64,000 bases of DNA. Source: Acidobacteriota bacterium. GTDB lineage: Bacteria; Acidobacteriota; Terriglobia; Bryobacterales; Bryobacteraceae. Location of the stretch: positions 1-64,000 of the forward strand of contig JAPKYX010000216.1 of the NCBI GenBank assembly GCA_026394075.1, read 5' to 3'. The notes under the pieces are model-generated. The model had not been told where the DNA came from. It saw only the letters and a list, made by a program, of their open reading frames with translations, and ran no database searches. Positions 10,709 through 64,000 of this stretch are shown here, piece by piece (the first letter of the stretch is position 1; each line of letters starts with the position of its first letter). The position numbers and the translations under genes are program-made.

Positions 10709-11278
10709 CTACGGTGTCGTATCCTCTTTGGCCCGTGAGGCTTCAATCTTGAAGCCCACCTTGCCGTAGGGCGAATCCGATTGCACGATCGACAAAATGC
10801 CCGACACCTCCACCGGTTTGGCAAACGTCACCTTGGCCGCGCCGGAGGTCATCTGGACAAAGACAATCTGGTTGGCCGGTGGAGGCGGCGTGTGGACGCA
10901 CATACCCGCTTCCGGCACCAGCAAAAACTCATCCGCGGATTCATTCTCGTCGGCAAACGGCACCATGTAGCCGGTTAGCCGAACAGCTCCGCCTTCCATC
11001 CGCTTCAAGGCTGCGGACAGATCGCCGGAGCGGGTGTTTAAGCCGCGCAGCAGAGCCCATTCAACGGGACGGTAGATTGATGGTTCGTCTTTCCGGGGCT
11101 CGTCCATCCCGGTATCCGGTGGCAGCGGTCGCGAATCGCTGATCGCCTTCGGTGCCGGCGCGCTTTCCTCCACCAACTTGTAGCGCGGCTGACAGGCGGT
11201 CAACAGAACAACCAGGCCAAGGCCCGCCGCGCACGTTCGGTACGCTCGAAGTCCTGGCGTTGGTGCTTCCTCAACCAT
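10709..11278 (-). CDS. DUF3299-like lipoprotein
   Basis: A 189-residue exported protein. The lipobox LVVLLTAC places the lipidated cysteine at about residue 29, after an N-terminal region that is long for a lipoprotein signal. The folded part, roughly residues 65-185, has VRLTGYMVPFADE, FLLVPEAGMCVHTPPPPANQIVFV and KVEVSG-type strands, which match the DUF3299 family of periplasmic proteins with unknown biochemical role (in some genomes next to copper or ABC export genes). It is probably monocistronic: the ATG has no Shine-Dalgarno but TAAGCT lies six bases upstream. It converges with lysA. Confidence 0.75.
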   Translation of the reverse strand: MVEEAPTPGLRAYRTCAAGLGLVVLLTACQPRYKLVEESAPAPKAISDSRPLPPDTGMDEPRKDEPSIYRPVEWALLRGLNTRSGDLSAALKRMEGGAVRLTGYMVPFADENESADEFLLVPEAGMCVHTPPPPANQIVFVQMTSGAAKVTFAKPVEVSGILSIVQSDSPYGKVGFKIEASRAKEDTTP

Positions 11279-11284
11279 GCAACC

Positions 11285-11290
11285 AGCTTA
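11285..11290 (-). promoter_or_regulatory. -10-like element, leaderless start of DUF3299 gene
   Basis: TAAGCT on the minus strand, six bases before the ATG at 11278, with no ribosome site between. Confidence 0.4.
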
Positions 11291-11327
11291 CCGGGCCGTT
11301 GCGCCCCGTGCCTGGAGATTCAATCCG

Positions 11328-11633
11328 CTATTGCGCTACCGCACTCACCACCATGCTGGTGGCGGCATCGGTGTAGTTGGGAATGTCGGCCAAAATCTCG
11401 CCGCCATGCTGTCCCAGCAGGGCACCCAGCGCCGCCTCATCCTGGAACAGCAGTTGCGCAATGCAAACGTAAGGCGATGGCGCGCCACCCAGCGAGGAGA
11501 CGCACCGGTCCACCGTCAGGGAAATCATGCCCAGCGGCTTGCCCAATCGTTCCACCAGGGGTGTATGCGTCGAGAGATAGTAATCCCAGTCGAAGCGGGA
11601 GCTGGTCGAATAAAGTACCGTAACGCGGATCAT
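11328..11633 (-). CDS. EthD-family protein
   Basis: A 101-residue protein with the dimeric alpha/beta-barrel EthD fold signature: MIRVTVLY at the start, DWDYYLSTHTPLVERL (the conserved His-Thr-Pro of the family) and a C-terminal IPNYTDAATSMVVS. Family members are small cytosolic oxidoreductase-associated or substrate-binding proteins; the reaction cannot be assigned. It starts at an ATG with TATAAT exactly six bases upstream and no Shine-Dalgarno, a clear leaderless arrangement. Confidence 0.8.
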   Translation of the reverse strand: MIRVTVLYSTSSRFDWDYYLSTHTPLVERLGKPLGMISLTVDRCVSSLGGAPSPYVCIAQLLFQDEAALGALLGQHGGEILADIPNYTDAATSMVVSAVAQ

Positions 11634-11639
11634 CGCGCC

Positions 11640-11645
11640 ATTATA
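11640..11645 (-). promoter_or_regulatory. -10 element, leaderless start of EthD gene
   Basis: A perfect TATAAT on the minus strand with a six-base gap to the ATG at 11633, placing the expected transcription start on or next to the start codon. Confidence 0.65.
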
Positions 11646-11677
11646 CGCAACTGGCCGCGCCGCCGTGCCCAGTGCGC

Positions 11678-12148
11678 CTACTTGATCTCCGCGCTGGTGG
11701 CTGTTGCCGGCTCCGCCGCGTAGTTCTGCCGGATCACCAGCGTCTGATCACTAAAGAACGTGCGCGTGCCGGTGGAGTTGAAGGCCACCGGATTGGCGTT
11801 GATCGTATACCCGCCCGGTCCGCCCGTCAGCGTGATCTTGTAGCCCTGCTTCTCGCCGCTGGCCAGATCTCCCGGAATCAGGTCCGCACCCGATGGGCTG
11901 GGGCTGCCGGAAGCCGGCGGGCCAAGCTCGGTCAGCGCGGTGGCAAACTTGCCAAACTGCGAGTAGTACTGGGTTTGCGATTGATGAATAGCCACGATGT
12001 GCCGGATCGCGGCCATCTCCTGCGCCTGCATGCGGGCGCGGTTAAGCTTGGGCACGGCAATGGCGGCGATAATCAGGATGATCGCGATAACGATCAGCAG
12101 TTCGACCAGGCTGAATCCGCGTGCGCGGCGGCGTTGACGATTGAGCAT
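11678..12148 (-). CDS. Type IV pilin / pseudopilin-like protein
   Basis: A 156-residue protein with a class III (prepilin) signal: basic leader MLNRQRRRARG, cleavage before Phe12, Glu at mature position 5 (GFSLVELLIVIAIIL) and one long hydrophobic helix. The C-terminal part (about 50-156) is a small globular domain with the Gly/Pro-rich loop seen in major pseudopilins (ELGPPASGSPSPSGADLIPG). It could be a type II secretion pseudopilin or a minor type IV pilin. The ATG at 12148 follows GAGGAGACAT. The processing enzyme is probably the prepilin peptidase at 35183-36001. No secretion or pilus assembly genes are adjacent, so it is an orphan pilin in this window. Confidence 0.88.
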   Translation of the reverse strand: MLNRQRRRARGFSLVELLIVIAIILIIAAIAVPKLNRARMQAQEMAAIRHIVAIHQSQTQYYSQFGKFATALTELGPPASGSPSPSGADLIPGDLASGEKQGYKITLTGGPGGYTINANPVAFNSTGTRTFFSDQTLVIRQNYAAEPATATSAEIK

Positions 12149-12373
12149 ATGTCTCCTCGGATGCCTCTTGGACGGGCACCAACCCTCTACTGTATGACGG
12201 AGCGGACGCCCATGGCGTGCAGACCCCTGGCGGAATCTCCGCGCCGCGCCCACCGTTGACCGCGCGGCGCAAAACTTTGGCGGCCCCATGGGAATAGCCG
12301 GACCCTCTCTCGGCATACATCCCAGCGATGATGCTCGCCTTTCGCGGCAGCCGTCGTCCAGGTGAGGAGATCA

Positions 12374-13060
12374 ATGACGACGAAGCGGCTGGAGCAGAAG
12401 CACTCTCTCGGCAAGCGGTGGACCCACTGGGTAAATTTCCCGGTGCTGATGGTGATGATCTGGAGCGGCTTGCTTATCTACTGGGCCAACGACGTCTACG
12501 AAGTCAACCTGGGGCCAGCCTCGTTCCATTTCTTTCCGGATGCGGTCTACCGGGCCTTCAACCTGGACCACCGGCTTTCTGAAGGCATGGCGGTCCACTT
12601 TCTGTTCATGTGGCTGTTTGCCATAAACGGCGTGATGTACGTTCTCTACACCGCGATCTCGGGTGAATGGCGTGATCTGGTGCCGCAAAAGGGCTCGTTT
12701 GGCGATGCGCTCCAGGTGATGCTCTACGATCTCGGTCTCCGCAAGCAGCTGCCGCCCCAAGGCAAGTACAACGCGGCCCAGCGGGTGACGTATTCCGCCA
12801 TCATCGTGATGGGCCTGGGCAGTCTCATCACCGGTCTGGCCATCTACAAGCCGATCCAGGTGGCCTGGCTGACTGAAGGGCTGGGCGGCTACACCTGGGC
12901 TCGCGCCGAGCATTTCGTGCTCACCCTGGGGTATCTGGGATTCTTTGTCATCCATATTGCGCAGGTACTTCGCGCGGGTTGGGGCAACTTCCAATCCATG
13001 GTGACGGGCGTGGAACTGGTGGAAACCAAGTTGGCTGCCAAGGAGACGGTCCATGAATAA
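12374..13060 (+). CDS. Membrane cytochrome b subunit
   Basis: A 228-residue inner-membrane protein of the di-haem cytochrome b561/formate-dehydrogenase gamma type. It has about four to five membrane helices and candidate haem histidines in KRWTHWVNFPVL, LDHRLSEGMAVHFLFMWLF and HFVLTLGYLGFFVIHIAQV. It overlaps the molybdopterin oxidoreductase gene by eight bases, so the pair should form one complex, with this subunit passing electrons between the quinone pool and the periplasmic molybdenum subunit. The ATG at 12374 is chosen for its AGGAG ribosome site; an in-frame GTG lies at 12362. The role is analogous to MsrQ for MsrP, but the sequence is not an MsrQ-type protein. Confidence 0.85.
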   Translation: MTTKRLEQKHSLGKRWTHWVNFPVLMVMIWSGLLIYWANDVYEVNLGPASFHFFPDAVYRAFNLDHRLSEGMAVHFLFMWLFAINGVMYVLYTAISGEWRDLVPQKGSFGDALQVMLYDLGLRKQLPPQGKYNAAQRVTYSAIIVMGLGSLITGLAIYKPIQVAWLTEGLGGYTWARAEHFVLTLGYLGFFVIHIAQVLRAGWGNFQSMVTGVELVETKLAAKETVHE

Positions 13061-13811
13061 CGCAACTTTGCCGCCCACCACGCCGGAGCAGGAGCTGGCC
13101 AAGCGCACGCGGCGCGGTTTCCTGGGCTTGGGTCTCGGCGCGGCGGCGGCCGCCGGAGGCTGGCAGTGGCTCTGGTCCCAGCCACAGGAAGGCGGCGTTC
13201 CGGTGCCGCTGCGGAGCGTATTGGACGCCAATGCCCGCCTCAACCAGAACCTGTTATTCCGCGATGCCCATCTGGCACCGGAGTTTCCGCCGGAGCGCAT
13301 CCAAGCCATTCGCGCCAATGGCGACTTCGGCCTGGAAGGTGCCCTCGACGCCGATGCCTGGCGTCTCGCCCTGACGCCCTGGCGCGGCGCGGCTCCCCTG
13401 CAATTGACCATGGCGGACCTGAAGAAGCTGAACAAGCTCGAATACACCGCCGAGTTCAAGTGCATCGAAGGCTGGAGCTCAATTGTCCGCTGGGGCGGCG
13501 TCCGCTTCCGGGACTTTGTGGCCCTCTACGCGCCGGGTGCCGAGAAGGCCGCCTACGTCAGCCTGACCACGCCCGACAAAGAGTATTTTGTCGGTGTCGA
13601 CATGGCCAGCATGCTGCACCCGCAAACGATGCTCTGCTTTGAGAAGAACGGCCAGCCGCTGGAACTGGCCCATGGTGCGCCCCTCCGCCTGGTGATCCCC
13701 GTGAAGTACGGCATCAAGAACATCAAGCGGATCGGCACCATCTCCTTCAGCGACCAGGCGCCCCCGGACTACTGGGCCGAAGAGGGCTACGACTACTACG
13801 CCGGCCTGTAG
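13053..13811 (+). CDS. Tat-exported molybdopterin oxidoreductase (sulfite oxidase fold)
   Basis: A 252-residue periplasmic enzyme. A twin-arginine signal (KRTRRGFLGLGLG, residues 17-29) precedes a single sulfite-oxidase-type molybdopterin domain. Cys137 in EFKCIEGWSSIVRWGGV is the expected molybdenum ligand; the C-terminal RLVIPVKYGIKNIKRIG binds the cofactor. It lacks the dimerisation domain of true sulfite oxidases and so resembles the YedY/MsrP group, which reduces oxidised methionine in periplasmic proteins, though other substrates (sulfoxides, nitrogen oxides) are possible. Start and stop overlap with the cytochrome b gene (ATGAATAA), which shows tight co-translation. Confidence 0.88.
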   Translation: MNNATLPPTTPEQELAKRTRRGFLGLGLGAAAAAGGWQWLWSQPQEGGVPVPLRSVLDANARLNQNLLFRDAHLAPEFPPERIQAIRANGDFGLEGALDADAWRLALTPWRGAAPLQLTMADLKKLNKLEYTAEFKCIEGWSSIVRWGGVRFRDFVALYAPGAEKAAYVSLTTPDKEYFVGVDMASMLHPQTMLCFEKNGQPLELAHGAPLRLVIPVKYGIKNIKRIGTISFSDQAPPDYWAEEGYDYYAGL

Positions 13812-13896
13812 GCGCTCCGCCGCCGCGCTGATGTGGTATCCGTCATGAGGTGAACTTTGCTCCTCTGTTAGCGCTTCCCCCGGGCCGGATCCGTCC

Positions 13897-15141
13897 ATGA
13901 CGCTTCCGGGTTTGCGCTGGTACATCATCGGGCTGGTCTTCTTCGCCACGCTGATCAACTTCATTGACCGGCTGACGGTCTCCGTGCTCGCCCCCGTCAT
14001 CGTGCGGGACCTAGGCTTGTCGAACCAGCAGTTCGCGCAGATCGCCACCTGGTTTCTGGCGGCCTATTCCGTCAGCCAGGCGCTTTCGGGGCGCCTCTAT
14101 GACCGCCTGGGCATCAAGCGCGGCTTCACTTGGTCCATCATCGTCTGGTCTCTGGCGGCCATGGCGCACGCCTTCGCGAGATCCGCCCTCAGCTTGAGCA
14201 TCTGCCGGTTCCTGTTGGGTGCCGGTGAGGCCGGCAACTGGCCCGGAGCGGCCAAGGTGGCAGGCGAATGGTTTCCCGCCTCGGAACGCCCGCTGGCCAT
14301 GGCCATCTTCAACAGCGGTGCCGCGCTGGGCAGTGTCCTGGCACCGCCGCTGATCATCTTCCTGCAATTGCGGTTCGGCTGGCAGATGACCTTTCTGGTC
14401 ACCGGCTCCCTGGGCTTTCTCTGGCTGCTCGTGTGGCTGTGGGCCTATCAGCCGCCCGCCGAGCACCGGTGGCGGCATGCCTCAGAGCCCTACGGCGGAG
14501 CGGAAGCGGCATCGACGCCACGCTGGACCTACGCCCAGCTATTCCGCACTCGTGAAACCTGGGCCATCGTCCTGGCCCGCCTGTTGACGGACCCGGTCTG
14601 GTGGCTCTACATCACCTGGCTGCCCCTCTACCTAAGCCGCGTCCACGGACTGAACCTCCAGCAGATCGCCTGGGTGGCCCCCGTCCCGTTTCTCGCCGCC
14701 GACGCGGGCAGCTTGCTGGGCGGCGGCGCCGCGCTGTGGCTGGTGAAACGCGGCTGGAGCATCGACCGTGCCCGCAAGGCCGTCATCCTCGCCTCCGCCG
14801 CACTGATGTCCGTCGGGTTGGCCGCCGGGCAAGTGAAGGATGCCGTCGCCGCCGTCGTGCTCATCTCGACGGTCACCTTCGGGTTCCAAGCCTGGATCAA
14901 CAACGTCCAAACCCTCCCCAGCGACTACTTTCCCGCCTCCTCCGTCGCCTCCGTAGCCGGCCTCGGCGGCTTGGGCGCGGGCATTGGCGCCATGGTCTTC
15001 ACCCTCTCCACCGGCTGGGTAGTGGACCATCTAGGCTACACCCCCATCCTGCTGACCGCAGGCGTCCTGCCAGTCATCGGCACCGCCCTACTGCTAGCCC
15101 TAGGCGGTAAGATCCGCCCCCTCTCCCATCCCCCGAAATAA
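13897..15141 (+). CDS. MFS transporter, ACS/hexuronate type
   Basis: A 414-residue major facilitator with twelve predicted helices. The N-terminus YIIGLVFFATLINFIDRLTVSVLAP and the loop-2/3 motif GRLYDRLGIKRGF are typical of the anion:cation symporter family that includes hexuronate (ExuT) and glucarate carriers. GAGEAGNWPGAAKVAGEWFP is another strong ACS signature. The substrate is probably a sugar acid, but no catabolic gene is adjacent. No Shine-Dalgarno is visible before the ATG, and the gene stands alone, 85 bases after the molybdopterin oxidoreductase. Confidence 0.88.
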   Translation: MTLPGLRWYIIGLVFFATLINFIDRLTVSVLAPVIVRDLGLSNQQFAQIATWFLAAYSVSQALSGRLYDRLGIKRGFTWSIIVWSLAAMAHAFARSALSLSICRFLLGAGEAGNWPGAAKVAGEWFPASERPLAMAIFNSGAALGSVLAPPLIIFLQLRFGWQMTFLVTGSLGFLWLLVWLWAYQPPAEHRWRHASEPYGGAEAASTPRWTYAQLFRTRETWAIVLARLLTDPVWWLYITWLPLYLSRVHGLNLQQIAWVAPVPFLAADAGSLLGGGAALWLVKRGWSIDRARKAVILASAALMSVGLAAGQVKDAVAAVVLISTVTFGFQAWINNVQTLPSDYFPASSVASVAGLGGLGAGIGAMVFTLSTGWVVDHLGYTPILLTAGVLPVIGTALLLALGGKIRPLSHPPK

Positions 15142-44675: not shown

Positions 44676-46031
44676 TTACAGGTTCGACAACTGGCTGATC
44701 TTGCCGGTGCTGTCGCCGAACTTTTCGGCTTTGACGCCTGCTGCTTCCAGCATCGTCAGGTAGAGGTTGGTCATCGGCGTGCCCTTGGGGTAGCGCACGT
44801 GCCGTCCGCCGTGGACGCGGCCGTTGCCGCCACCCGCCAGCAAGGCCGGCAGGTTGAGGTGCTCATGCCGGTTGCCGTCGCTGATGCTGCTGCCGTAGAC
44901 CAACATCGAATGATCCAGCAACGTGCCGTCGCCGTCCTTGGTCTCTTTCAGGCGCTGCACCAGGTAGCTGAACATCAATACGTGGTGCTGGTCGATCTTC
45001 TGCAGCTTGGCGATCTTTTCGGCGTCGTTGAAGTGATGCGACAAGCCGTGGTGGGCGTCCGGAACACCGATTGACCGGTACGTGCGGTTGCCACCTTCGC
45101 GGCCCATCATGAAGGTGATGGTGCGGGTGAGATCGGCCTGGAAAGCGATGGTGATCAGGTCCGCCATCAGGTGGGCGTGCTCTTCAAAGGTGGGCGGAAT
45201 GCCGCCGGGGCGGTCAATGGCCGGGAGATCCGGCGCGTCGGCGCTTTGGGCCTCCACCCGCTGGATGCGCTGCTCGATCTCACGGACGGAATCGAGATAC
45301 TCGCTCAACTTGCGCTTGTCGGCGGTGCCCAGCGAACTGCCCAGGCGACCGGCATCGTCACGGACAAAGTCGAGAATGCTGCGATCCTGGCGCGCTTGCA
45401 AAATGCGAGCCGCCGGGTCAGTGGTTTCGCCATCGCCAAACAGCCGTTCAAACACGGCCCGCGGATTCATCTCCGGCGGCAGCGGCGTCGAGGGCGAACT
45501 CCAGGAAAGGGTGTTGCTGTAGGCGCAGCTGTAGCCGGAATCGCAGTTGCCCACCAGCCGGTTGTCTTCCAGGCCAATCTCCAGCGACGGCAGCGTCGTC
45601 TGGCGGCCAATCTCTTTGGCCAGAATCTGGTCGATCGATACCCCGGCCTGGATGTCCGCGCCTTGGGTCTTCTTGGGGTGGACGCCGGTTAGCCAGGTCG
45701 CACCTGCCCGCGCGTGATCGCCCGCGCCATCGCCCAGCGCCTGACCCGTGTAGTGGTCCAGACCCGACATCACCAGCAAGTTCTCGCGGAACGGGGCCAG
45801 CGACTGCAGTGTCTTGGTGAACTCAAACGCCTTGCCTTCGACCGCCGGCGTCCAGTCCTTCATGATGATGCCGTTGGGCACATAGACAAAGGCGGTCCGC
45901 AGCGGCGCGGCACCAGATTTGGCCGGGCCAGCCAGCGCCGGAGACATGGCATCGAGGAAGGGCAGCGCGACCGCTGTGCCCAGGCCGCGTAGCAGGCTGC
46001 GGCGGGAAAGGGCCTTATTCGTCAAGATCAT
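44676..46031 (-). CDS. DUF1552 protein, Tat-exported
   Basis: A 451-residue exported protein. The Tat signal (SRRSLLRGLGTAVALPFLD) is followed by the DUF1552 fold: AFVYVPNGIIMKDWTP, NLLVMSGLDHYTG, HARAGATWLTG, MNPRAVFERLFGDG, ITFMMGREGGNRTY and SMLVYGSSISDGNRHEHLNLP. This family of sulfatase-like (DUF1501-related) proteins occurs almost only beside DUF1592 cytochromes in Planctomycetes and Acidobacteria. Function is not established; a role in breaking down complex polymers has been proposed by context. It overlaps the DUF1592 gene by ATGA. Confidence 0.9.
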   Translation of the reverse strand: MILTNKALSRRSLLRGLGTAVALPFLDAMSPALAGPAKSGAAPLRTAFVYVPNGIIMKDWTPAVEGKAFEFTKTLQSLAPFRENLLVMSGLDHYTGQALGDGAGDHARAGATWLTGVHPKKTQGADIQAGVSIDQILAKEIGRQTTLPSLEIGLEDNRLVGNCDSGYSCAYSNTLSWSSPSTPLPPEMNPRAVFERLFGDGETTDPAARILQARQDRSILDFVRDDAGRLGSSLGTADKRKLSEYLDSVREIEQRIQRVEAQSADAPDLPAIDRPGGIPPTFEEHAHLMADLITIAFQADLTRTITFMMGREGGNRTYRSIGVPDAHHGLSHHFNDAEKIAKLQKIDQHHVLMFSYLVQRLKETKDGDGTLLDHSMLVYGSSISDGNRHEHLNLPALLAGGGNGRVHGGRHVRYPKGTPMTNLYLTMLEAAGVKAEKFGDSTGKISQLSNL

Positions 46032-48346
46032 CGGTCGGGAGTCCTCCTCATCTGGAATGGTACGCTATTGGCGATCGCCAGCGCGAGAGCCGAAAACTGA
46101 TAGCCGTTCTTGGCCGTTTCGCGCCGAATGTTGCGCACGGTGGGCAGGTCGTAATGCTCCAGGCCGCGGCCCAGCGCATAGGTCAGTAGCTTCTCGGAGA
46201 TGCAGTCGACAAACTGGTCACTGCGCTCCATCAACACTTGCTTCAACCCGGACGGCCCGCGGAACGTCGCTCCACCGGGCAGCGCACCGGAGGAATCGAC
46301 TTCTGCACCATCCTCGGTCTTGCGATAAGTGCCAACCGCGTCAAAGTTTTCAAGCGCAAAGCCCAGCGGATCGAGCCGCGAATGGCAGGCCGCACAGGCG
46401 ATGTTGGCGCGATGCTCCTCCAGCGCCTTGCGCAGATCCTTGGCGGAGTTAGCAGCGCTGGCCTTCAGGTCCGGCACGTTGGGCGGCGGCGGTGGGGGTG
46501 GGGAAGCGAGAATGTTTTCGAGCACCCACTTGCCGCGCAGGACGGGCGAAGTGCGGGTGGGGTAAGACGAGACCAGCAGGACGCTGCCATGGGTCAGCAC
46601 GCCCCCGCGCTCCTCCCCATTCAGCGGCACACGGCGAAAGTAGGAACCCTTTACGCCGGGGACGCCATAGTGACTGGCCAGCCGTTCGTTCAGGAACGAG
46701 TAATCAGCGTTCAGAAACTCGAGAACATTGCGGTCTTCCCGCACGATGTGCTCGACAAACAGCTCAGTTTCTCGCTGCATGGCGAACCGCAACGGCTCAT
46801 CGAATTTGGGGAACTTGTCCGGGTCCGGCCGCCAGTTGGCTACATTGCGGAGCTGCAACCACTGCCCCGCAAAGTTCTCGACCAGAGCGCGAGACTTGGG
46901 GTCGGCCAGCATACGCTTCACTTGCGTGGCCAGCACCGGACGCAAGCGATTCTGCGACGCCAGCTGCAATAGTTCGTCGTCCGGGATGCTGCTCCAGATA
47001 AAGAAAGATAGGCGCGAGGCTAGCTCCAGGTCGGAGATGCGATGCCGCGACCCGGGCAGGGCATTGGCGGGCGACTTCTCCACCCGGAACAGGAAGTGCG
47101 GCGAAACCAGAATGGCGCGCAACGCAGTTTCGATACCGGCCTCAAAGCTGTTGCCATCCTTGCGCCCCATGGCGAAGACCTTCATCAAAGGGGCCGTGTC
47201 CGCCAGCGTGACCGGCCGGCGGTAGGCTCGGCGGGCGAGGGTGTTGATGATGCGTTGCGCACAGGTAGCTTCGGGAAGGCTGGGGCCAGGGCGGCAGGTG
47301 AGGACGCGAGCGCGCGAATCGGAGTTCCCCGGACCCTTGGGATCAAAGGGACCGCCGATCAGCACGTAATCCACTGAGGCGGGCGAAGACGGCGGCGGGG
47401 CCAGCGGGCCGCGCGCCACTGCTCCACCCTCCACCTTGGCCAGTTCCGGCAGGAAGCCCGCGCCAATTGAATGTTTACCCGGCTTCAGCGGGACGCGAAT
47501 TTCGACGTTGCGTGAAATCTGAGCTTCTTCAGCGGCGTTAATGGCCACATCCAACAACTGGACGCGCTTGCCATCTACCCGAAGATCTAGCTTGGGCGGC
47601 GGCAGCGTCGATGACGGATTGCCCCGGACCCGCACCATGATCGAATACTCAGCTTCCACCGGGAAGTAGGGCCGCACCACGATTCCGCCGCGCACGGTCA
47701 GTGGCAGTTCGCCGCCAGTCTCGCCATTGGTGGCGGCGGTCGGTGAGTACTTTTCGATGGCCGGCTTCGACTTCACGTTGCCCATCGCCAGCCGGCTGAC
47801 GCGCCGGGCGGTGGACATGTACTTTTCCATGTGCAGCGGCGAAACGGTGAGAACAGAGCCGATGTTGTCGAAGCCGTAGCCGGAATCATCGGCCGGCAAA
47901 CTCGCGGCATTGTCGAGATCCAGTGCCACCAGATCGCGCACGGCGTTCGAGTACTCCGCCCGGTTCAGACGATGGATGGCCGGTGCGCCAGGGTTGGGTT
48001 GGGCGGCCGCATTGCGGTCGAGTTCGCCTTCCAGCCAGGTTGACAGCGACAATGCCGCCGCCTTGTCGGGTTGTGGCGCGCCCACCGGAGGCATCTCACC
48101 GGTGCGGACCTTGCGCAGCACCTTCTCCCATGGCGCGGCGTCGGCCGGAATGGCCGTGGTCTTCAAACTCGTGATGGCGATGTCGGCGGTCTTCAACTGC
48201 TCGTTGTGGCAGGCCACGCAATACCGGTTGAGCAACCTCTGATGCGTCTGCGCGGGAGCCGGAGCTGCCGCTTTGGCCGAGGGAGCGGGCGCTTGGGCTG
48301 CGATGGAGAGCGCAACGGTGAAGGCGGAGATGAGTGCGCGAAGCAT
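46028..48346 (-). CDS. DUF1592-type secreted cytochrome protein
   Basis: A 772-residue secreted multidomain protein. After a signal peptide (MLRALISAFTVALSIAAQ) come a class I cytochrome c domain with CVACH (about residue 46), DUF1587, a carbohydrate-binding-like stretch, then DUF1595/1592/1588/1585. Key segments: AIHRLNRAEYSNAVRDLVALD, SRLSFFIWSSIPDDELLQLA, YSFLNERLASHYGV, TRTSPVLRGKWVLENIL and a second haem-like CAACH in CAACHSRLDPLGFALENFDAVG. The set is typical of the planctomycete-type cytochromes that pair with DUF1552. I chose the ATG at 48346; the TTG at 48397 would extend the signal peptide. Confidence 0.9.
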   Translation of the reverse strand: MLRALISAFTVALSIAAQAPAPSAKAAAPAPAQTHQRLLNRYCVACHNEQLKTADIAITSLKTTAIPADAAPWEKVLRKVRTGEMPPVGAPQPDKAAALSLSTWLEGELDRNAAAQPNPGAPAIHRLNRAEYSNAVRDLVALDLDNAASLPADDSGYGFDNIGSVLTVSPLHMEKYMSTARRVSRLAMGNVKSKPAIEKYSPTAATNGETGGELPLTVRGGIVVRPYFPVEAEYSIMVRVRGNPSSTLPPPKLDLRVDGKRVQLLDVAINAAEEAQISRNVEIRVPLKPGKHSIGAGFLPELAKVEGGAVARGPLAPPPSSPASVDYVLIGGPFDPKGPGNSDSRARVLTCRPGPSLPEATCAQRIINTLARRAYRRPVTLADTAPLMKVFAMGRKDGNSFEAGIETALRAILVSPHFLFRVEKSPANALPGSRHRISDLELASRLSFFIWSSIPDDELLQLASQNRLRPVLATQVKRMLADPKSRALVENFAGQWLQLRNVANWRPDPDKFPKFDEPLRFAMQRETELFVEHIVREDRNVLEFLNADYSFLNERLASHYGVPGVKGSYFRRVPLNGEERGGVLTHGSVLLVSSYPTRTSPVLRGKWVLENILASPPPPPPPNVPDLKASAANSAKDLRKALEEHRANIACAACHSRLDPLGFALENFDAVGTYRKTEDGAEVDSSGALPGGATFRGPSGLKQVLMERSDQFVDCISEKLLTYALGRGLEHYDLPTVRNIRRETAKNGYQFSALALAIANSVPFQMRRTPDR

Positions 48347-48384
48347 CGTATGGGAGGCAGCCTTTTCGCTTGCCGCAAGGCAGC

Positions 48385-48390
48385 TTATAT
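48385..48390 (+). promoter_or_regulatory. -10-like element of ankyrin gene
   Basis: TTATAT about nine bases before the ATG at 48400. The same AT-rich spot, read on the other strand, could serve the divergent DUF1592 gene. Confidence 0.4.
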
Positions 48391-48399
48391 CATTCAATC

Positions 48400-57432: not shown

Positions 57433-57620
57433 CGCCGATATCTTTTCACAACCCAGGCCCCCAAGGGCTCGTCCGGCGCGTCCGCCCCCCTCATTTGATT
57501 TCGCTGGCGTTGAGTCTTCTAGCGCAGAAGGGCACGCAGACATGGGTCCTGTCACCCCTTTTTGGGGGCCACCTTCCGCGCAGGACCATAAGTTGCCGCC
57601 AGATGACAGGGCTAACTGTT

Positions 57621-57634
57621 GGTCACCCAAGTGC
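57621..57634 (+). promoter_or_regulatory. Possible sigma-54 (-24/-12) site
   Basis: GG (57621-57622), ten bases, GC (57633-57634), with GTGCT at the -12 side, 72 bases before the PEP-CTERM gene. The GG-N10-GC spacing fits sigma-54 but the remainder matches the consensus poorly. Sigma-54 control of PEP-CTERM genes is known in other bacteria. Confidence 0.25.
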
Positions 57635-57706
57635 TCCTCTATTTGGCGTATCGAAAAGTCTGTGAAACCTGACGACAAAGTTAGGCGCAGAAAGGAGTAT
57701 ATCGAT

Positions 57707-58243
57707 ATGAAACGACTATTCGTAGCGGCCTTGTTGACCGCGAATCTGGCCACGGCTTGTCGCATTTACGATCTCTACCAAGACTGGAGCGACGATCCGG
57801 ACCGATGGGGTTGGTCGCTCACTGGGGGTTACTTCGAGAAGGGCTCAGCTGGCATTCTAGTACTACCCGACCCCTGGGCGCGGGTGGGCTGGCAGTATGA
57901 CGGCCGCTCTGGGGGGCTAGTTAGCATCTCTGGTTCAGTGGAGTATGCCGAGGGCTTCCAGCTGGCGAGTGATGATTTCGAACTGCTTCTGGATGGGCAG
58001 CTGCTGACCTCTGGCACCGTCAGCTATCTCAATCCTGGACCGATCCATTTCAGGTTCGGTATCCCGTATACCCACCACGCTAACGTGGAGTTTTTCTTAC
58101 ACGCTACGGGGCCTATCTGCTGTGCCATCGCAAATGTGAGCTTGGTGTACGAAACTGTTCCGGAGCCCGGTACATTCGGGCTGATGGCGACCGCCGGGCT
58201 GGCCCTGCTGGTGGCTGGCTACCGGCATCACCACCAGACCTAA
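57707..58243 (+). CDS. PEP-CTERM-sorted secreted protein
   Basis: A 178-residue exported protein with a signal peptide (MKRLFVAALLTANLATA) and the C-terminal sorting signal VPEPGTFGLMATAGLALLVA, that is VPEP, a transmembrane stretch, and a basic end (YRHHHQT). Exosortase would cut it and place it on the surface or in the exopolysaccharide matrix. The middle is a beta-rich, Gly/Tyr-rich domain of about 130 residues with no known family. AAAGGAG lies 10 bases before the ATG at 57707. The only PEP-CTERM gene in the window; the exosortase is elsewhere. Confidence 0.85.
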   Translation: MKRLFVAALLTANLATACRIYDLYQDWSDDPDRWGWSLTGGYFEKGSAGILVLPDPWARVGWQYDGRSGGLVSISGSVEYAEGFQLASDDFELLLDGQLLTSGTVSYLNPGPIHFRFGIPYTHHANVEFFLHATGPICCAIANVSLVYETVPEPGTFGLMATAGLALLVAGYRHHHQT

Positions 58244-58277: not shown

Positions 58278-59252
58278 TCAGCGCGAGTGGGTTTTCAGCC
58301 GCCGCTCCAGGTAGTCCACAAACCGGGCGGTGGGGTCAAAGCCCACCACGTTCACCGCATCCGTAACGAAGTTAGACAGCGCATTGATGTCGTAATAGGC
58401 GATCTCGCCCGTCCGCTCATCCACCAGATACTCGATGCCGCCGACATCCAGCTTCGCCGCCCGTGCCAGCGCCAGTGCGCCTTCAATCGCGGCCGCTGGC
58501 GGGTGCTCGGCTTCGATGCGGAGCTTCTTCTTGCCGGGTGCTTCCACCGGGCAGGCGCTCATGTCCACCGGCGGCGGAGGCGGAGCGTCGTCCACCTGGC
58601 AGATATCGGCCGGGCAGAGGTTGAAGCTCGAAAGATCGGGCCAGATGCGGATGGCGTAGAGGAACTGGTTGTCCAGGATCTCGACGCGCACAATCGATTG
58701 ATCACGGGCGGTGAGAAACTCCTGCACCAGCGCGGTGCCATCGACGCCAAAATCAAACGTCGCGGCGGCCAGTTGCTCCATCGAGTCAAAGCGCACAATG
58801 CCCGCGCCGCTACCGCCCACGTTGGGTTTGAAGACGATAGGGAAGCGCAGTCCCTGGGCGGCCTCCACCACTCGGGCGGCGCTGTTGACGACCCGAGCTT
58901 TCGGATAACCCACGCCGCAGCGCCGGAACAGGTCCAGCTGCAAAGCCTTCGAGATCTCCACCGCATAGGCGGGGGTGCCGTTCACCACGGGAACGCCAGT
59001 CTCCTCCAGATGCCGCAGGTAGTCGCGGACGGTGAAGATGCCATTGCCGTGTCCCCGCCGGTGCGAGGAAGGGCTCATGCGGTTCACCACCAGGCTGTGG
59101 CCGACCGGCTGCTCCGGGTCGTAGACAAAATCGGCGGCCGGAAGCGGGGCCCAGGGCAGTCCGCGGCGGTCCAGTTCGCTAAACAGCAGGTTGAACCACT
59201 CGGGATGCTCGTACAGAATGCCGATCGACGGAGATGCGGGAGGCGCGCTCAT
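58278..59252 (-). CDS. ATP-grasp ligase-like protein
   Basis: A 324-residue ATP-grasp protein of the RimK/D-Ala-D-Ala-ligase-like class. MSAPPASPSIGILYEHPEWF begins the pre-ATP-grasp fold, FPIVFKPNVGGSGAGIVRF is the phosphate loop, ALVQEFLTARDQSIVRVEIL the adenine side, and DINALSNFVTDAV the metal-binding end. It joins a carboxylate to an amine or thiol with ATP, but the substrate cannot be read from sequence. It follows, and overlaps by ATGA, a 2Fe-2S protein gene, which is an uncommon partner. Confidence 0.82.
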   Translation of the reverse strand: MSAPPASPSIGILYEHPEWFNLLFSELDRRGLPWAPLPAADFVYDPEQPVGHSLVVNRMSPSSHRRGHGNGIFTVRDYLRHLEETGVPVVNGTPAYAVEISKALQLDLFRRCGVGYPKARVVNSAARVVEAAQGLRFPIVFKPNVGGSGAGIVRFDSMEQLAAATFDFGVDGTALVQEFLTARDQSIVRVEILDNQFLYAIRIWPDLSSFNLCPADICQVDDAPPPPPVDMSACPVEAPGKKKLRIEAEHPPAAAIEGALALARAAKLDVGGIEYLVDERTGEIAYYDINALSNFVTDAVNVVGFDPTARFVDYLERRLKTHSR

Positions 59253-60232
59253 AAAGTGATTGTGGCATCCTCGCCCGCCCGCTCGCGGCGGCTCCGTCCC
59301 CAGACGGCATTCCAGGGTGGAATCACAATGCTGACGCTGCCGAAAGCCTGGGCCTGGCAGGCGAGGCGGAGCAATGGGCGAGATGACTCAGTGTCCAGGC
59401 CCGGAGCGTCAAAGTACCCAAAATAGTCCATCCGCTGGCGCTCAAACGGCGTGATCTCCGACAGTTTCTCCTGTCCGCCCAGGACTCCCACCCAGCAAGT
59501 ACCGCAAGCCCCCGACCGGCAATCCACCGGGATGATGCCCATGCCCTCGTAGCAGCGTGGGTCGCGTAAGTGGTGTGGCCGCTTGTCAAGTTCCGCAGCG
59601 GTGGTGATGTGTTGCGACGGAATCAGGGGGAACCAGCCATCGGCGGTCTGCTCTTCGCAGATCACCCGGGGTGTCGAGCGCTTCCCGCGCAGCCGTTCCC
59701 CCAGCGAGGGGGCAAAATCAGAGGCCCGCGAGCGGAGCACCTGGTCGGCGGGGTGACCACGGGCGGTCACTCGGTTGGTCACCGCCTTGGCTGCTTCGGC
59801 GTTGGCGGGCGATTCCCAGCCGTCCCAGCCCGTCTGCCGCAGCGTCATCAGACCGATGGCCGCCATCGCCAGTGAGAACTCCGCTGGCGCTTGGCTGGCC
59901 TGGGCTACCGCTTCGACGGTCTCCCGCAAGTCAGTGCCCCCTCTGGCGGTGCCAATAGCGGCCTTCACCACCGCCCAGTAGCGGTGGCCGTAAAGGAACT
60001 CGTGGGAAGTATCCACCTGATCAAGCAGGCGGTAGGCGCCATTCACCTGGTAAAACTTTTCAAACTGCGGGCGTGACGCGGGGTTCTGCGCCAATGCGTG
60101 CCAGGGGAGCGGCCACAGTCCAAACCAGATGCGCAGCGCGTCGCGGTCCACGGCGTGCGTGCGCGGCAGCAGTTGCCGGATAACGTCCGGCCACTGGCCG
60201 TCCTGTTGCTGGAGTGAATCGAATAGGTTCAT
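59249..60232 (-). CDS. 2Fe-2S ferredoxin-domain protein with unknown N-terminus
   Basis: A 327-residue cytoplasmic protein. Residues 1-190 are a helical domain with no family I recognise (MNLFDSLQQQDGQWPDVIRQ; SHEFLYGHRYWAVVKAAIG). About residues 200-310 form a ferredoxin domain with CRSGACGTC (C-x4-C-x2-C) and a fourth Cys in LACQAQAFGS, which fits a plant-type 2Fe-2S cluster, rather like the succinate-dehydrogenase iron-sulfur subunit. It is coupled to the ATP-grasp gene by ATGA, so the pair should act in one pathway. The ATG at 60232 is used; the frame is open further upstream without a start signal. Confidence 0.78.
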   Translation of the reverse strand: MNLFDSLQQQDGQWPDVIRQLLPRTHAVDRDALRIWFGLWPLPWHALAQNPASRPQFEKFYQVNGAYRLLDQVDTSHEFLYGHRYWAVVKAAIGTARGGTDLRETVEAVAQASQAPAEFSLAMAAIGLMTLRQTGWDGWESPANAEAAKAVTNRVTARGHPADQVLRSRASDFAPSLGERLRGKRSTPRVICEEQTADGWFPLIPSQHITTAAELDKRPHHLRDPRCYEGMGIIPVDCRSGACGTCWVGVLGGQEKLSEITPFERQRMDYFGYFDAPGLDTESSRPLLRLACQAQAFGSVSIVIPPWNAVWGRSRRERAGEDATITL

Positions 60233-60293
60233 ACGGGGCAAGCACTTGGATGCTTCTGCGACACCCGGGGATGCGCCGTTGGGATGATGCTCC

Positions 60294-60323
60294 TTGACAG
60301 CAGGCCGTCGATTCTCATAGATT
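60294..60323 (+). promoter_or_regulatory. Promoter of the DapA-like gene
   Basis: TTGACA (60294-60299), 18-base spacer, TAGATT (60318-60323). Transcription would start near 60330 and give a leader of about 35 bases. Confidence 0.5.
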
Positions 60324-60364
60324 CGCGGAGGGGCACATTTCAGCCCCACCCTGGTCCCCAAAAC

Positions 60365-61358: not shown

Positions 61359-62795
61359 ATGAACAGATTCCTTGACCGGCCAATCCTCGCCCTGCTCACC
61401 AGCCACTGGTTGTCGATGCTCGGGTCGGGCTTGGTGACCACGGCGGCCATCTCCTGGCTGCTGGTGCTGCCCCTGCAAATGCGCGGCCACGTCGAAAACC
61501 CCTACATGGGGATTCTCCTCTTTGTCGCTCTGCCAATTCTGTTTGTGGCCGGTTTGCTACTGATTCCGGTGGGTGTTCTGTTGGACCGGCGGCGCGTGAG
61601 GCGTGGCGTCGCCGCCGCGCAGGACCGGCCCGCCGTGATGCGGCGCGTGGCCACATTTCTGGCGATCACCACGATTGCCAACGTGATCATCGCCTCCCAA
61701 CTCACCTACCGGGCGGTGGAGCACATGGAGACGGCGCAATTCTGTGGCCAGACCTGCCATGTGATGGCTCCTGAACTGGCCTCCTACCAGAATTCTCCGC
61801 ATTCCCGTGTGGCGTGCGTCTCCTGCCATGTCGCGCCCGGCGCCAGCGGTTGGTTTGCCGCCAAGGCGGCGGGAGTCCGGCAATTGAGCGCTGTTGCGTT
61901 GAACAACCACCCCCGCCCCATCGCGTCCGCCATTGAGTCCGGCATGCTGGTGCCTGACTCAGAGACCTGTGAGCGGTGCCATTGGCCGCAGGGTTCAGGG
62001 AGTGTGAAGTTTAGCGTCATCCCCAACTTTGGCGACGATGAAGCCAATACCGCCACCCAGACCGTGCTGATGATGATGGTCGGTGGGTCAAAGGCCGCAC
62101 GGGGGATCCACGGTGCGCATTTTGGCCCTGGGGTCAGTGTCCGTTACGCGGCCTTGGACCCCAAGCGCCAAACCATCCCCTGGGTGGAGTACACCAACGC
62201 AGAGAGCAATGACCGCCGCACGTATGTGTCGGCTGACGTCAAGGCCGACCAATTGGCCGCCGCACCGCGCTTCCAGATGCAATGCGTCGATTGTCATAAC
62301 CGGCCCACGCACCGGTTCGAACTGCCGGAGCGGGCGGTGAACCGTGCCATGGCCACAGGCGATCTGTCACCCGGATTACCGTTCCTGAAGAAACAGGCGG
62401 TGGAGCTATTGCGCAAAGAGTACGCCTCGGCCGACGAGGCGGGCCGGCGCATCCCGGAAGCGCTGACGGCCTTTTACGAAACCAAGTATCCGCAAGTGGC
62501 GGGCACCCAGCGGAAGGCCGTGACGGACGCGGGCAAGCAGTTGGCCGCCATTTATCAACGGAATGTCTTCCCGGACTTAAAAGTCACCTGGGGAACCTAT
62601 GTGAATAATCTCGGGCATACCGATTCGCCAGGCTGCTTCCGCTGCCATGACGATGCCCACGTGGCCGCCAATCAAGCCACCATCAAGCAGGATTGTGCCA
62701 GTTGCCACGAACTGCTGGCGGTGGAAGAGTCCACGCCAGAGATCTTAAAGACATTGGGGCTGGCGGGTAAAATCGCGCAGTTGCAAAAGCGGTAA
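61359..62795 (+). CDS. NapC/NirT-like membrane multihaem cytochrome c
   Basis: A 478-residue inner-membrane cytochrome. Three membrane helices (about 14-36, 48-76, 98-114) replace the usual single anchor, then a periplasmic domain with six haem motifs: C129-x3-C-H (AQFCGQTCHVM), and five C-x2-C-H motifs at Cys153, 204, 309, 426 and 446. The first is the CX3CH spacing found in some NapC/NirT-type quinol oxidisers (the FCGxxCHxM region). It should take electrons from the quinone pool and hand them to a periplasmic cytochrome, probably the small one encoded next, and on to the OmcA/MtrC-type protein. The ATG at 61359 has no ribosome site but a hairpin. Confidence 0.88.
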   Translation: MNRFLDRPILALLTSHWLSMLGSGLVTTAAISWLLVLPLQMRGHVENPYMGILLFVALPILFVAGLLLIPVGVLLDRRRVRRGVAAAQDRPAVMRRVATFLAITTIANVIIASQLTYRAVEHMETAQFCGQTCHVMAPELASYQNSPHSRVACVSCHVAPGASGWFAAKAAGVRQLSAVALNNHPRPIASAIESGMLVPDSETCERCHWPQGSGSVKFSVIPNFGDDEANTATQTVLMMMVGGSKAARGIHGAHFGPGVSVRYAALDPKRQTIPWVEYTNAESNDRRTYVSADVKADQLAAAPRFQMQCVDCHNRPTHRFELPERAVNRAMATGDLSPGLPFLKKQAVELLRKEYASADEAGRRIPEALTAFYETKYPQVAGTQRKAVTDAGKQLAAIYQRNVFPDLKVTWGTYVNNLGHTDSPGCFRCHDDAHVAANQATIKQDCASCHELLAVEESTPEILKTLGLAGKIAQLQKR

Positions 62796-62822
62796 ACCAC
62801 CCAATTCGGGTGGTCTGATTTT
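62796..62822 (+). terminator. Intercistronic terminator-like hairpin
   Basis: ACCACCC (62796-62802), loop AATTC, GGGTGGT (62808-62814), then CTGATTTT. It starts at the stop of the NapC-like gene and may lower readthrough into, or protect, the small cytochrome message. Confidence 0.6.
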
Positions 62823-62852
62823 GGCTGGAACTTAAAGGAGAACGGGAACCAA

Positions 62853-63164
62853 ATGAGAACACTGATCACAGCGGTAGTGGGCACGGCGCTGGGCGCGGCC
62901 CTGGTGCTGGCGGCCGACGCGGCGGCGGGAAAGGCAACATACGACAAGAGTTGCAAGTCCTGCCACGGTGCCGATGGCACGGCCAATGCGGCGATCGCCA
63001 AGGGCCTGAAGGTGGAAATGAAGGCCCTGGGCAGCAAGGAAGTCCAGGCCAAAAGCGACGCCGACATCAAGAAAGTGATCGTCGATGGTCAGGGCAAGAT
63101 GAAAGGCTACAAAATTGCTAACCCAGATGACGTCGTAGCCCATGTCCGGTCTTTGAAGAAGTAA
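62853..63164 (+). CDS. Small periplasmic cytochrome c
   Basis: A 103-residue class I cytochrome. A signal peptide (MRTLITAVVGTALGAALVLA) precedes a mature protein of about 80 residues with Cys34-x2-Cys37-His38 (KSCKSCHGADG) and a methionine ligand in GQGKMKGYKIA. AAAGGAGAACGGG lies before the ATG. It should shuttle electrons in the periplasm between the NapC-like cytochrome and the outer-membrane conduit. Confidence 0.92.
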   Translation: MRTLITAVVGTALGAALVLAADAAAGKATYDKSCKSCHGADGTANAAIAKGLKVEMKALGSKEVQAKSDADIKKVIVDGQGKMKGYKIANPDDVVAHVRSLKK

Positions 63165-63235
63165 TCAGGATCGGCTGGGTCTGGTTTCCGGAGCTGCCCG
63201 AAGCAGTAATCCGGACTTGAGTGGGGGAGGGTAAC

Positions 63236-64000
63236 GTGAAGCGAATCCAATGGCCGAAGGCGAAGTGGGCGGCAGCGGCAATTCTGCTGGGAGCAGCGGC
63301 GACGCTGGTCAGTCAGACTCCGAGTCCGTTTGCGCCCAATGAGGTTGCCGCCTATCTGGACCCGAACGTCGTAAACTTCGTTCGTCCGGGACTGGTGATC
63401 AAGGTGGAATCGGCCGAAGTGGCCACCGACGGCACCATCAGTGCTGTCGTGAATATCTCTGACCCTCGTGGGTTGGGGCTGGACCGGCTGGGTGTTAACA
63501 CGCCGGGCCCAGTTTCCTTGAGCTTTGTGGCCGCGTATCTCCCCCGCGGCCAGGCTCAGTACGTCTCCTACACCACCCGCCAGGCGACCGGCGCGGTGAG
63601 CGGCACCGTGACCCAGGCCGCATCTGATTCCGGTGGGGTCTATACCCAGTTGTCCGATGGCAAGTACCGCTACCGCTTCAACACCAAGGCTCCGGCCACC
63701 CATGACCGCAACGTCACGCACACCATCGGCGTCTACGGCAACCGCAACCTAACCGAGTTTGGGCTGCCGACCAACTATGCCAGCAACACTTTCAACTTCG
63801 TCCCCACCGGCGCCCCGGTGGCCGCTGTCCGTGATGTGATCCGGACCGAGAGCTGCAACCGCTGCCATGACCAGTTGAGCTTCCACGGTGGCTCCCGTCG
63901 CGGCATGGAGACGTGCGTGTTGTGCCACACGCCCCAGACCTCTGACCCGGATACGGGCAACACGATGGATCTGCCGGTCCTGGTTCACAAGCTCCATATG
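63236..64000 (+). CDS. OmcA/MtrC-type multihaem cytochrome, cut by the window edge
   Basis: The first 255 codons of a longer gene. GTG at 63236 follows GGGGGAGGGTAAC. After a signal-like N-terminus (AKWAAAAILLGAAATLVS) comes a beta-rich domain (about 35-200) and then the haem region with CNRCH at Cys207 and CVLCH at Cys227 so far; RGMETCVLCHTPQTSDPDT and VHKLHM fit OmcA/MtrC-family decahaem outer-surface cytochromes, which pass electrons to metals or other extracellular acceptors. More haem motifs should follow beyond 64000. No stop is reached in the window. Confidence 0.82.
   Translation, partial: MKRIQWPKAKWAAAAILLGAAATLVSQTPSPFAPNEVAAYLDPNVVNFVRPGLVIKVESAEVATDGTISAVVNISDPRGLGLDRLGVNTPGPVSLSFVAAYLPRGQAQYVSYTTRQATGAVSGTVTQAASDSGGVYTQLSDGKYRYRFNTKAPATHDRNVTHTIGVYGNRNLTEFGLPTNYASNTFNFVPTGAPVAAVRDVIRTESCNRCHDQLSFHGGSRRGMETCVLCHTPQTSDPDTGNTMDLPVLVHKLHM

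Follow-up and report, generated by a model that had tools for sequence, protein, structure and literature searches.

Results

A gene block predicted to reach from the quinol pool to the cell surface

For many bacteria that perform extracellular electron transfer, it is not settled how electrons leaving a quinol oxidase traverse the periplasm to reach the conduit in the outer membrane. Does a group of cytochrome genes in a member of the Bryobacteraceae (Acidobacteriota) encode such a route in full? The stretch examined (the window) comprises bases 1-64000 of the 87,933-base contig JAPKYX010000216.1, part of a 5.77-Mb genome in 302 contigs (GCA_026394075.1). Reading the contig past position 64000 revealed six genes on the + strand between 61359 and 69426, encoding in order an ImcH-like protein, a monohaem cytochrome, MtrC, MtrA, an outer-membrane barrel and a four-haem cytochrome. 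Judging from their sequences, these genes probably form one outward conduit that would carry electrons from menaquinol to acceptors outside the cell, with the ImcH-like protein as its entry point. An initial annotation of the window had proposed a conduit spanning inner membrane, periplasm and outer surface; MtrC, MtrA, the MtrB-fold barrel and the four-haem cytochrome support that proposal, and from them we infer its physiological role.

The genes are closely packed. mtrC overlaps mtrA and mtrA overlaps the barrel gene, while the remaining intergenic gaps are 57, 71 and 11 bases, an arrangement that would fit a single transcript. The block has a guanine-cytosine content of 63.2%, versus 62.9% for the contig. 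Chance occurrence of the haem motifs was ruled out by shuffling the residues of four block proteins 2000 times each: their CXXCH counts (5, 10, 10 and 4) were never reached, with shuffle maxima of 1, 1, 3 and 1, respectively.

An ImcH-like candidate entry protein

The first gene (61359-62795, +) encodes a protein of 478 amino acids with three N-terminal helices, five CXXCH motifs and one CX3CH motif, and is predicted to be an inner-membrane quinol oxidase related to NapC/NirT. Hydropathy places the hydrophobic segments at about residues 21-39, 51-69 and 97-115, and the helices of the predicted structure lie at 17-41, 48-81 and 90-123. The Pfam family NapC/NirT (PF03264) matches residues 98-208 with 40 bits (cut-off 24.1). 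In the atypical motif, CGQTCH at residue 129, the C, C and H residues are invariant in 30/30 aligned relatives, so it is not a sequencing slip. NrfH is the closest solved protein by sequence, and alignment to it sets Gln175 against the aspartate of the IAGARD stretch and the invariant Lys169 against the lysine just before that stretch, residues that we take to be quinol-binding in NrfH. A search of plasmids with this type of ImcH returned one partial NapC/NirT match, from Selenomonas, covering 23% of the query.

The architecture agrees with the account of ImcH given in passages of PMC6295460: three helices, a CX3CH beside them, 5-9 CX2CH motifs, a NapC/NirT-like middle part and a published range of 6-10 haem motifs. 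The initial annotation had read the gene as a NapC/NirT-like quinol-side cytochrome with six haems and three helices; both counts hold, but the protein is better called ImcH-like than NapC-like, by its match to the published description rather than to the Geobacter protein itself. The three anchor helices and the CX3CH motif, which had been singled out as oddities, are both typical of ImcH proteins as described there.

Candidate periplasmic carriers and a predicted outer-membrane complex

The second gene (62853-63164, +) encodes a class I cytochrome c, as originally annotated, with 103 amino acids and one CXXCH, and is a probable periplasmic carrier. The third has an open frame from 63221 and a better start at GTG 63236, preceded by GGGGGAGGG. 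Read from there (63236-65353, +, with 63236-64000 inside the window), it runs on to ten CXXCH motifs and scores 496.6 bits to TIGR03507 (OmcA/MtrC; cut-off 209.3), which bears out its earlier assignment to the OmcA/MtrC type from the start of the gene. The conduit thus escapes one refutation set by the initial annotation, an end of this gene lacking additional haem motifs. A profile of MtrC relatives matches the solved structures of MtrF, OmcA, UndA and MtrC.

The barrel and the further multihaem genes that the initial annotation suggested seeking past 64000 were present at 65340-69426. First among them is mtrA (65340-66290, +), with ten CXXCH and 233.6 bits to TIGR03508, a family named DmsE (cut-off 192.2). 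A profile of its relatives matches chain A of 6r2q (4.6e-56), an entry titled Structure of the Mtr complex whose chain C is an OmcA/MtrC decahaem; on these grounds chain A was taken as MtrA, despite an ill-fitting enzyme name on the record.

The barrel gene follows (66287-68305, +). Its sequence has no Pfam or NCBIfam match at 0.001 and no solved-structure match at an expect value (E) up to 1. The fold was therefore approached through prediction on an 88% identical homologue, modelled together with 48 relatives, from locus L107, the nearest relative among public contigs (a metagenome-assembled genome labelled LacPavin). The resulting model has a predicted local distance difference test score (pLDDT) of 85.3 and 27 strand segments. 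MtrB (6r2q_B) ranked first in Foldseek with E 1.4e-14 and a template modelling (TM) score of 0.66; the next match by E reached 9.6e-10 at TM 0.37, and the highest other query TM among the best 50 rows was 0.46. VIA-align likewise gave Z 25.9 over 553 residues at 3.7 Å, followed by Z 18.0. Identity to MtrB in the structural alignments was 12-13%, which marks the protein as a strongly diverged MtrB-fold barrel. The block closes with a cytochrome gene encoding four haem motifs (68317-69426, +).

Other multihaem proteins occur elsewhere in the genome. On contig C73 (L193:4570-7517, -) lies another decahaem of the MtrA type, which scores 240.9 bits to TIGR03508. Directly behind it is a second barrel, related to the block's barrel (profile E 9.3e-41); no MtrC was found beside this pair in the 15.3 kb read. 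Proteins with 7-8 haem motifs are encoded at L196:2-1582, L196:3383-5020 and L197:1-1842, the latter two additionally matching tetratricopeptide-repeat families.

Recurrent linkage of imcH and mtrCAB in relatives

The initial annotation had called such a set uncommon, a view that does not survive sampling of the family: of 200 genomes sampled, 146 contain the barrel at E ≤1e-50 (100 of the 140 good-quality ones) and 153 contain an ImcH-like protein at E ≤1e-20. Across the class, a barrel match of at least 200 bits was found in 41/250 genomes, 39 of them from the window's family, which by our own count contributed 54 genomes among the class-draw matches listed. These 41 clusters, the window's included, have MtrA adjacent in 40, MtrC in 39, the four-haem gene in 22 and ImcH in 15; in the remaining cluster without a separate MtrA, MtrA forms part of the ImcH frame. 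The corresponding counts for 80 public-contig loci are MtrA 78, MtrC 67, four-haem gene 46 and same-strand ImcH 25. These are the best 80 of 105 relatives, mostly labelled Bryobacterales, Bryobacteraceae, Solibacter, Terriglobia or Acidobacteria, with one Sumerlaeaceae, and they overlap the sampled genomes (for example, L107 and G326:C13), so the sets are not independent. ImcH was counted as linked on the same strand only; the 25/80 thus leaves out L147, L161 and L181, where it is near but on the opposite strand, and L169, where it is further off.

Within the family, a same-strand ImcH lies within 6.5 kb of the barrel in at least 36 of the 146 barrel-bearing genomes, 18 upstream and 18 downstream. 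This is a lower bound, as same-contig pairs were identified by eye among the matches listed and contig breaks lose more. Among those matches, five more genomes have ImcH within 6.5 kb on the opposite strand and 13 same-contig pairs are farther apart; in the 9.5-Mb genome G198, for example, mtrC-mtrA-mtrB and the four-haem gene stand together with ImcH 168 kb off. With about one ImcH per genome, we estimate that chance would yield well below one linkage of the close, same-strand kind. We also built an ImcH tree from 63 rows, reduced to 58 by removing near-identical ones, with fused proteins trimmed to 520 residues. The window's genus groups with downstream-type proteins, apart from a second upstream clade, so on this tree the upstream arrangement must have arisen at least twice. 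Repeated co-directional linkage of this sort argues for a working partnership between ImcH and the Mtr proteins.

Several loci depart from the common layout. An mtrA-mtrB-mtrC order, with an MtrC-type gene behind the barrel, occurs in L145, L157, L161, L166, L169 and L181, and extra multihaem genes with 9-11 motifs lie near the mtr block in L111, L114, L122, L128, L141, L147, L158, L163 and L164. A possible in-frame TGA in ImcH, prompted by two TGA codons counted for G069, was discarded: the 460-amino-acid frame of L095, the one case examined, stops inside the matched stretch, so that the TGA codons lie past the normal stop.

ImcH fused to haem modules in two relatives

In two relatives the entry protein is covalently extended. 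The ImcH frame of L105 (genome G021; 11620-14280, -), between mtrC and mtrA, encodes 887 amino acids with 18 haem motifs, and its extension consists of four c7-type repeats that match 3ov0 at 3.8e-30; passages of PMC10138318 identify this structure as Geobacter GSU1996, a dodecahaem nanowire cytochrome. L087 (genome G249) has a single frame directly before mtrB (10914-14420, -), whose 1169 amino acids and 28 motifs comprise ImcH, twelve extra haems and MtrA. At E 1e-160, fused ImcH was found in 2/257 genomes of the order. A phylum draw of 396 genomes searched at E 1e-110 gave no fusion, its one match being an ordinary ImcH in a 501-amino-acid frame; G021 and G249 are absent from its matches and were apparently not drawn, so further fusions may occur elsewhere.

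The joining of MtrA in G249 calls for caution. When the L087 junction was inspected in three frames, the MtrA leader lacked a start codon before its hydrophobic core, and none of the other frames would supply a separate mtrA start. The junction, which comes from one assembly, may reflect a lost stop codon or an assembly error, and the signal-peptide-like stretch left within it makes the topology of the fused protein doubtful; for both reasons we are unsure of this joining.

These proteins prompt a further, tentative suggestion, which we regard as possible though short of probable: that the Bryobacterales possess a self-contained hybrid conduit in which a Geobacter-type ImcH entry is tied to a Shewanella-type MtrCAB exit, genetically and, in two lineages, covalently. 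One polypeptide would then lead from the quinol pool through twelve extra c7 haems (18 motifs), and in one lineage on through MtrA (28 motifs), bridging the periplasm without a diffusing shuttle.

Discussion

A proposed outward pathway and its alternatives

In the pathway that we favour, the ImcH-like protein would oxidise menaquinol at the inner membrane and charge its own periplasmic haems, and the monohaem cytochrome, the four-haem cytochrome or both could ferry electrons across the periplasm. MtrA, presumably seated inside the MtrB-fold barrel, would conduct them through the outer membrane to MtrC, which is predicted to sit at the surface and to deliver them to minerals of Fe(III) or Mn(IV), to humics or to an electrode. 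An Fe(III) reducer has been described within the Bryobacterales (PMC8407742).

Several observations weigh against this pathway. The predicted structure of the ImcH-like protein has intermediate confidence (pLDDT 73.1), the single fold match it gave, NrfH, is a weak one (E 0.29), and the name ImcH was drawn from a published description rather than from the Geobacter protein. No cysteine precedes the first haem of the window's MtrC, which thus has no lipobox or lipid anchor; a loose lipobox pattern appears in just 7/102 MtrC rows. The MtrC of Shewanella is a lipoprotein, a trait of the individual protein and not a family-wide one. Most barrel-bearing relatives among the matches listed have no same-strand ImcH nearby. 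Finally, the genome encodes a haem-copper oxidase, so its owner probably respires oxygen too.

That oxidase would also suit a flow of electrons in the opposite direction, in which Fe(II) or some other donor outside the cell feeds MtrCAB and the ImcH-like protein passes the electrons to quinone, the mode of iron oxidisers with Mto or Pio systems. The component sequences themselves carry no direction. MtoD is a monohaem cytochrome. The monohaem gene of the block would fit such a system: passages of PMC8805035 link mtoD to mtrCAB in its Group 4 and tie mtoC and mtoD to electron uptake. We nevertheless consider inward flow unlikely. Passages of PMC6295460 state that quinol oxidation is the only role in which ImcH has been implicated to date, and the presence of MtrC, together with that of an Fe(III) reducer in the order, suits outward flow better. 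Nor did the 96.9% complete genome yield a match to RuBisCO, the one carbon fixation marker that the search covered.

Alternatively, MtrCAB might draw on another inner-membrane enzyme or carrier, leaving the ImcH-like gene as a neighbour that serves a separate periplasmic pathway. That most barrel-bearing family genomes among the matches listed show no same-strand ImcH nearby would be consistent with this, as would the other multihaem genes and the second MtrA-barrel pair of the genome, but the same-strand linkage in two arrangements (18 upstream and 18 downstream, with repeated origins) and the fusion of ImcH to wire modules beside mtrB in two relatives make so loose an association improbable. 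A nitrite, nitric oxide or dimethyl sulfoxide (DMSO) respiratory locus, with the first gene as an NrfH/NapC-type donor and MtrA as DmsE, is highly improbable. It would draw on the family name of TIGR03508 and on the similarity of the first gene to NrfH and TorC, but both similarities are below cut-off (55.8 bits against 134.2 for the NrfH equivalog), and MtrA and the barrel are accompanied by MtrC, not by a molybdoenzyme. Two scans of neighbours (7 and 8 proteins, with MtrC in both, covering part of the contig's frames) contained no nitrite, nitric oxide or DMSO reductase, nor NrfA. We therefore rejected this reading, whose nitrite or nitric oxide form the initial annotation had named as one that would refute a conduit, and retain outward flow through ImcH and MtrCAB as the preferred interpretation.

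Neighbouring genes

Ahead of the block, overlapping genes at 58278-60361 (-) encode a 2Fe-2S (Fer2) protein beside an ATP-grasp RimK-like protein. The product of 57542-58243 (+) has a PEP-CTERM-like tail and scores 25.6 for the flocculation protein PepA, below the 80-bit cut-off. Elsewhere in the window, a stop-to-stop frame of 789 codons (46031-48397, -) contains two CXXCH motifs.

Significance and comparison with known systems

Components of extracellular electron transfer have been noted in acidobacteria before: mtrA/mtrB candidates in several (passages of PMC5900883), porin-cytochrome complexes in a Holophaga (passages of PMC7399161) and a decahaem survey from which acidobacterial iron reduction was proposed (passages of PMC3669403). 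Passages of PMC12133095, which are silent on adjacency, report expression of ImcH and Mtr homologues in one strain of the Desulfobacterota. Acidobacterial mtrCAB is thus already known, and what looks new is ImcH adjoining it; among the papers listed from the open-licence literature searched, none described an acidobacterial imcH-mtrCAB block, which does not imply its absence from print. The locus updates two genomic statements, each taken from passages of its source: that mtrAB or mtoAB was never found adjacent to imcH, in a study counting 19 ImcH homologues in Acidobacteria (PMC6295460), and that no quinone enzyme lay near the five acidobacterial mtrCAB hits (PMC8805035). As a single block that supplies a candidate for each step between the quinol pool and the cell surface, it offers a complete pathway that could be transferred to a laboratory host, and it would let the often proposed part of these bacteria in reducing iron or humics be put to a direct test. 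The fused relatives, in turn, could be used to ask whether a shuttle can be replaced by a covalent wire across the periplasm.

Set against known systems, the block is the Bryobacterales-type MtrCAB conduit that passages of Baker et al. 2022 (PMC8805035) describe as Group 5, from Acidobacteriia including Bryobacterales: in both, a tetrahaem gene directly follows mtrB. Unlike those loci, which lack an inner-membrane quinone enzyme nearby, the window's block has ImcH-like and monohaem genes directly in front. With the ImcH of Geobacter and other bacteria, as presented in passages of PMC6295460, the first gene has in common the three helices, the adjacent CX3CH, six haem motifs and the NapC/NirT-like middle part, but it adjoins mtrCAB, whereas the published genes stand without mtrAB or mtoAB. 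The dodecahaem GSU1996 (3ov0) has four trihaem c7 modules that recur in the fused ImcH of L105 and L087; there they are joined to ImcH, while the ImcH encoded in the window lacks this extension. The Shewanella Mtr complex in 6r2q is homologous to the block in MtrA and MtrC by sequence and in the barrel by fold, but the barrels are 12-13% identical, the window's system has no CymA and its MtrC lacks a lipobox.

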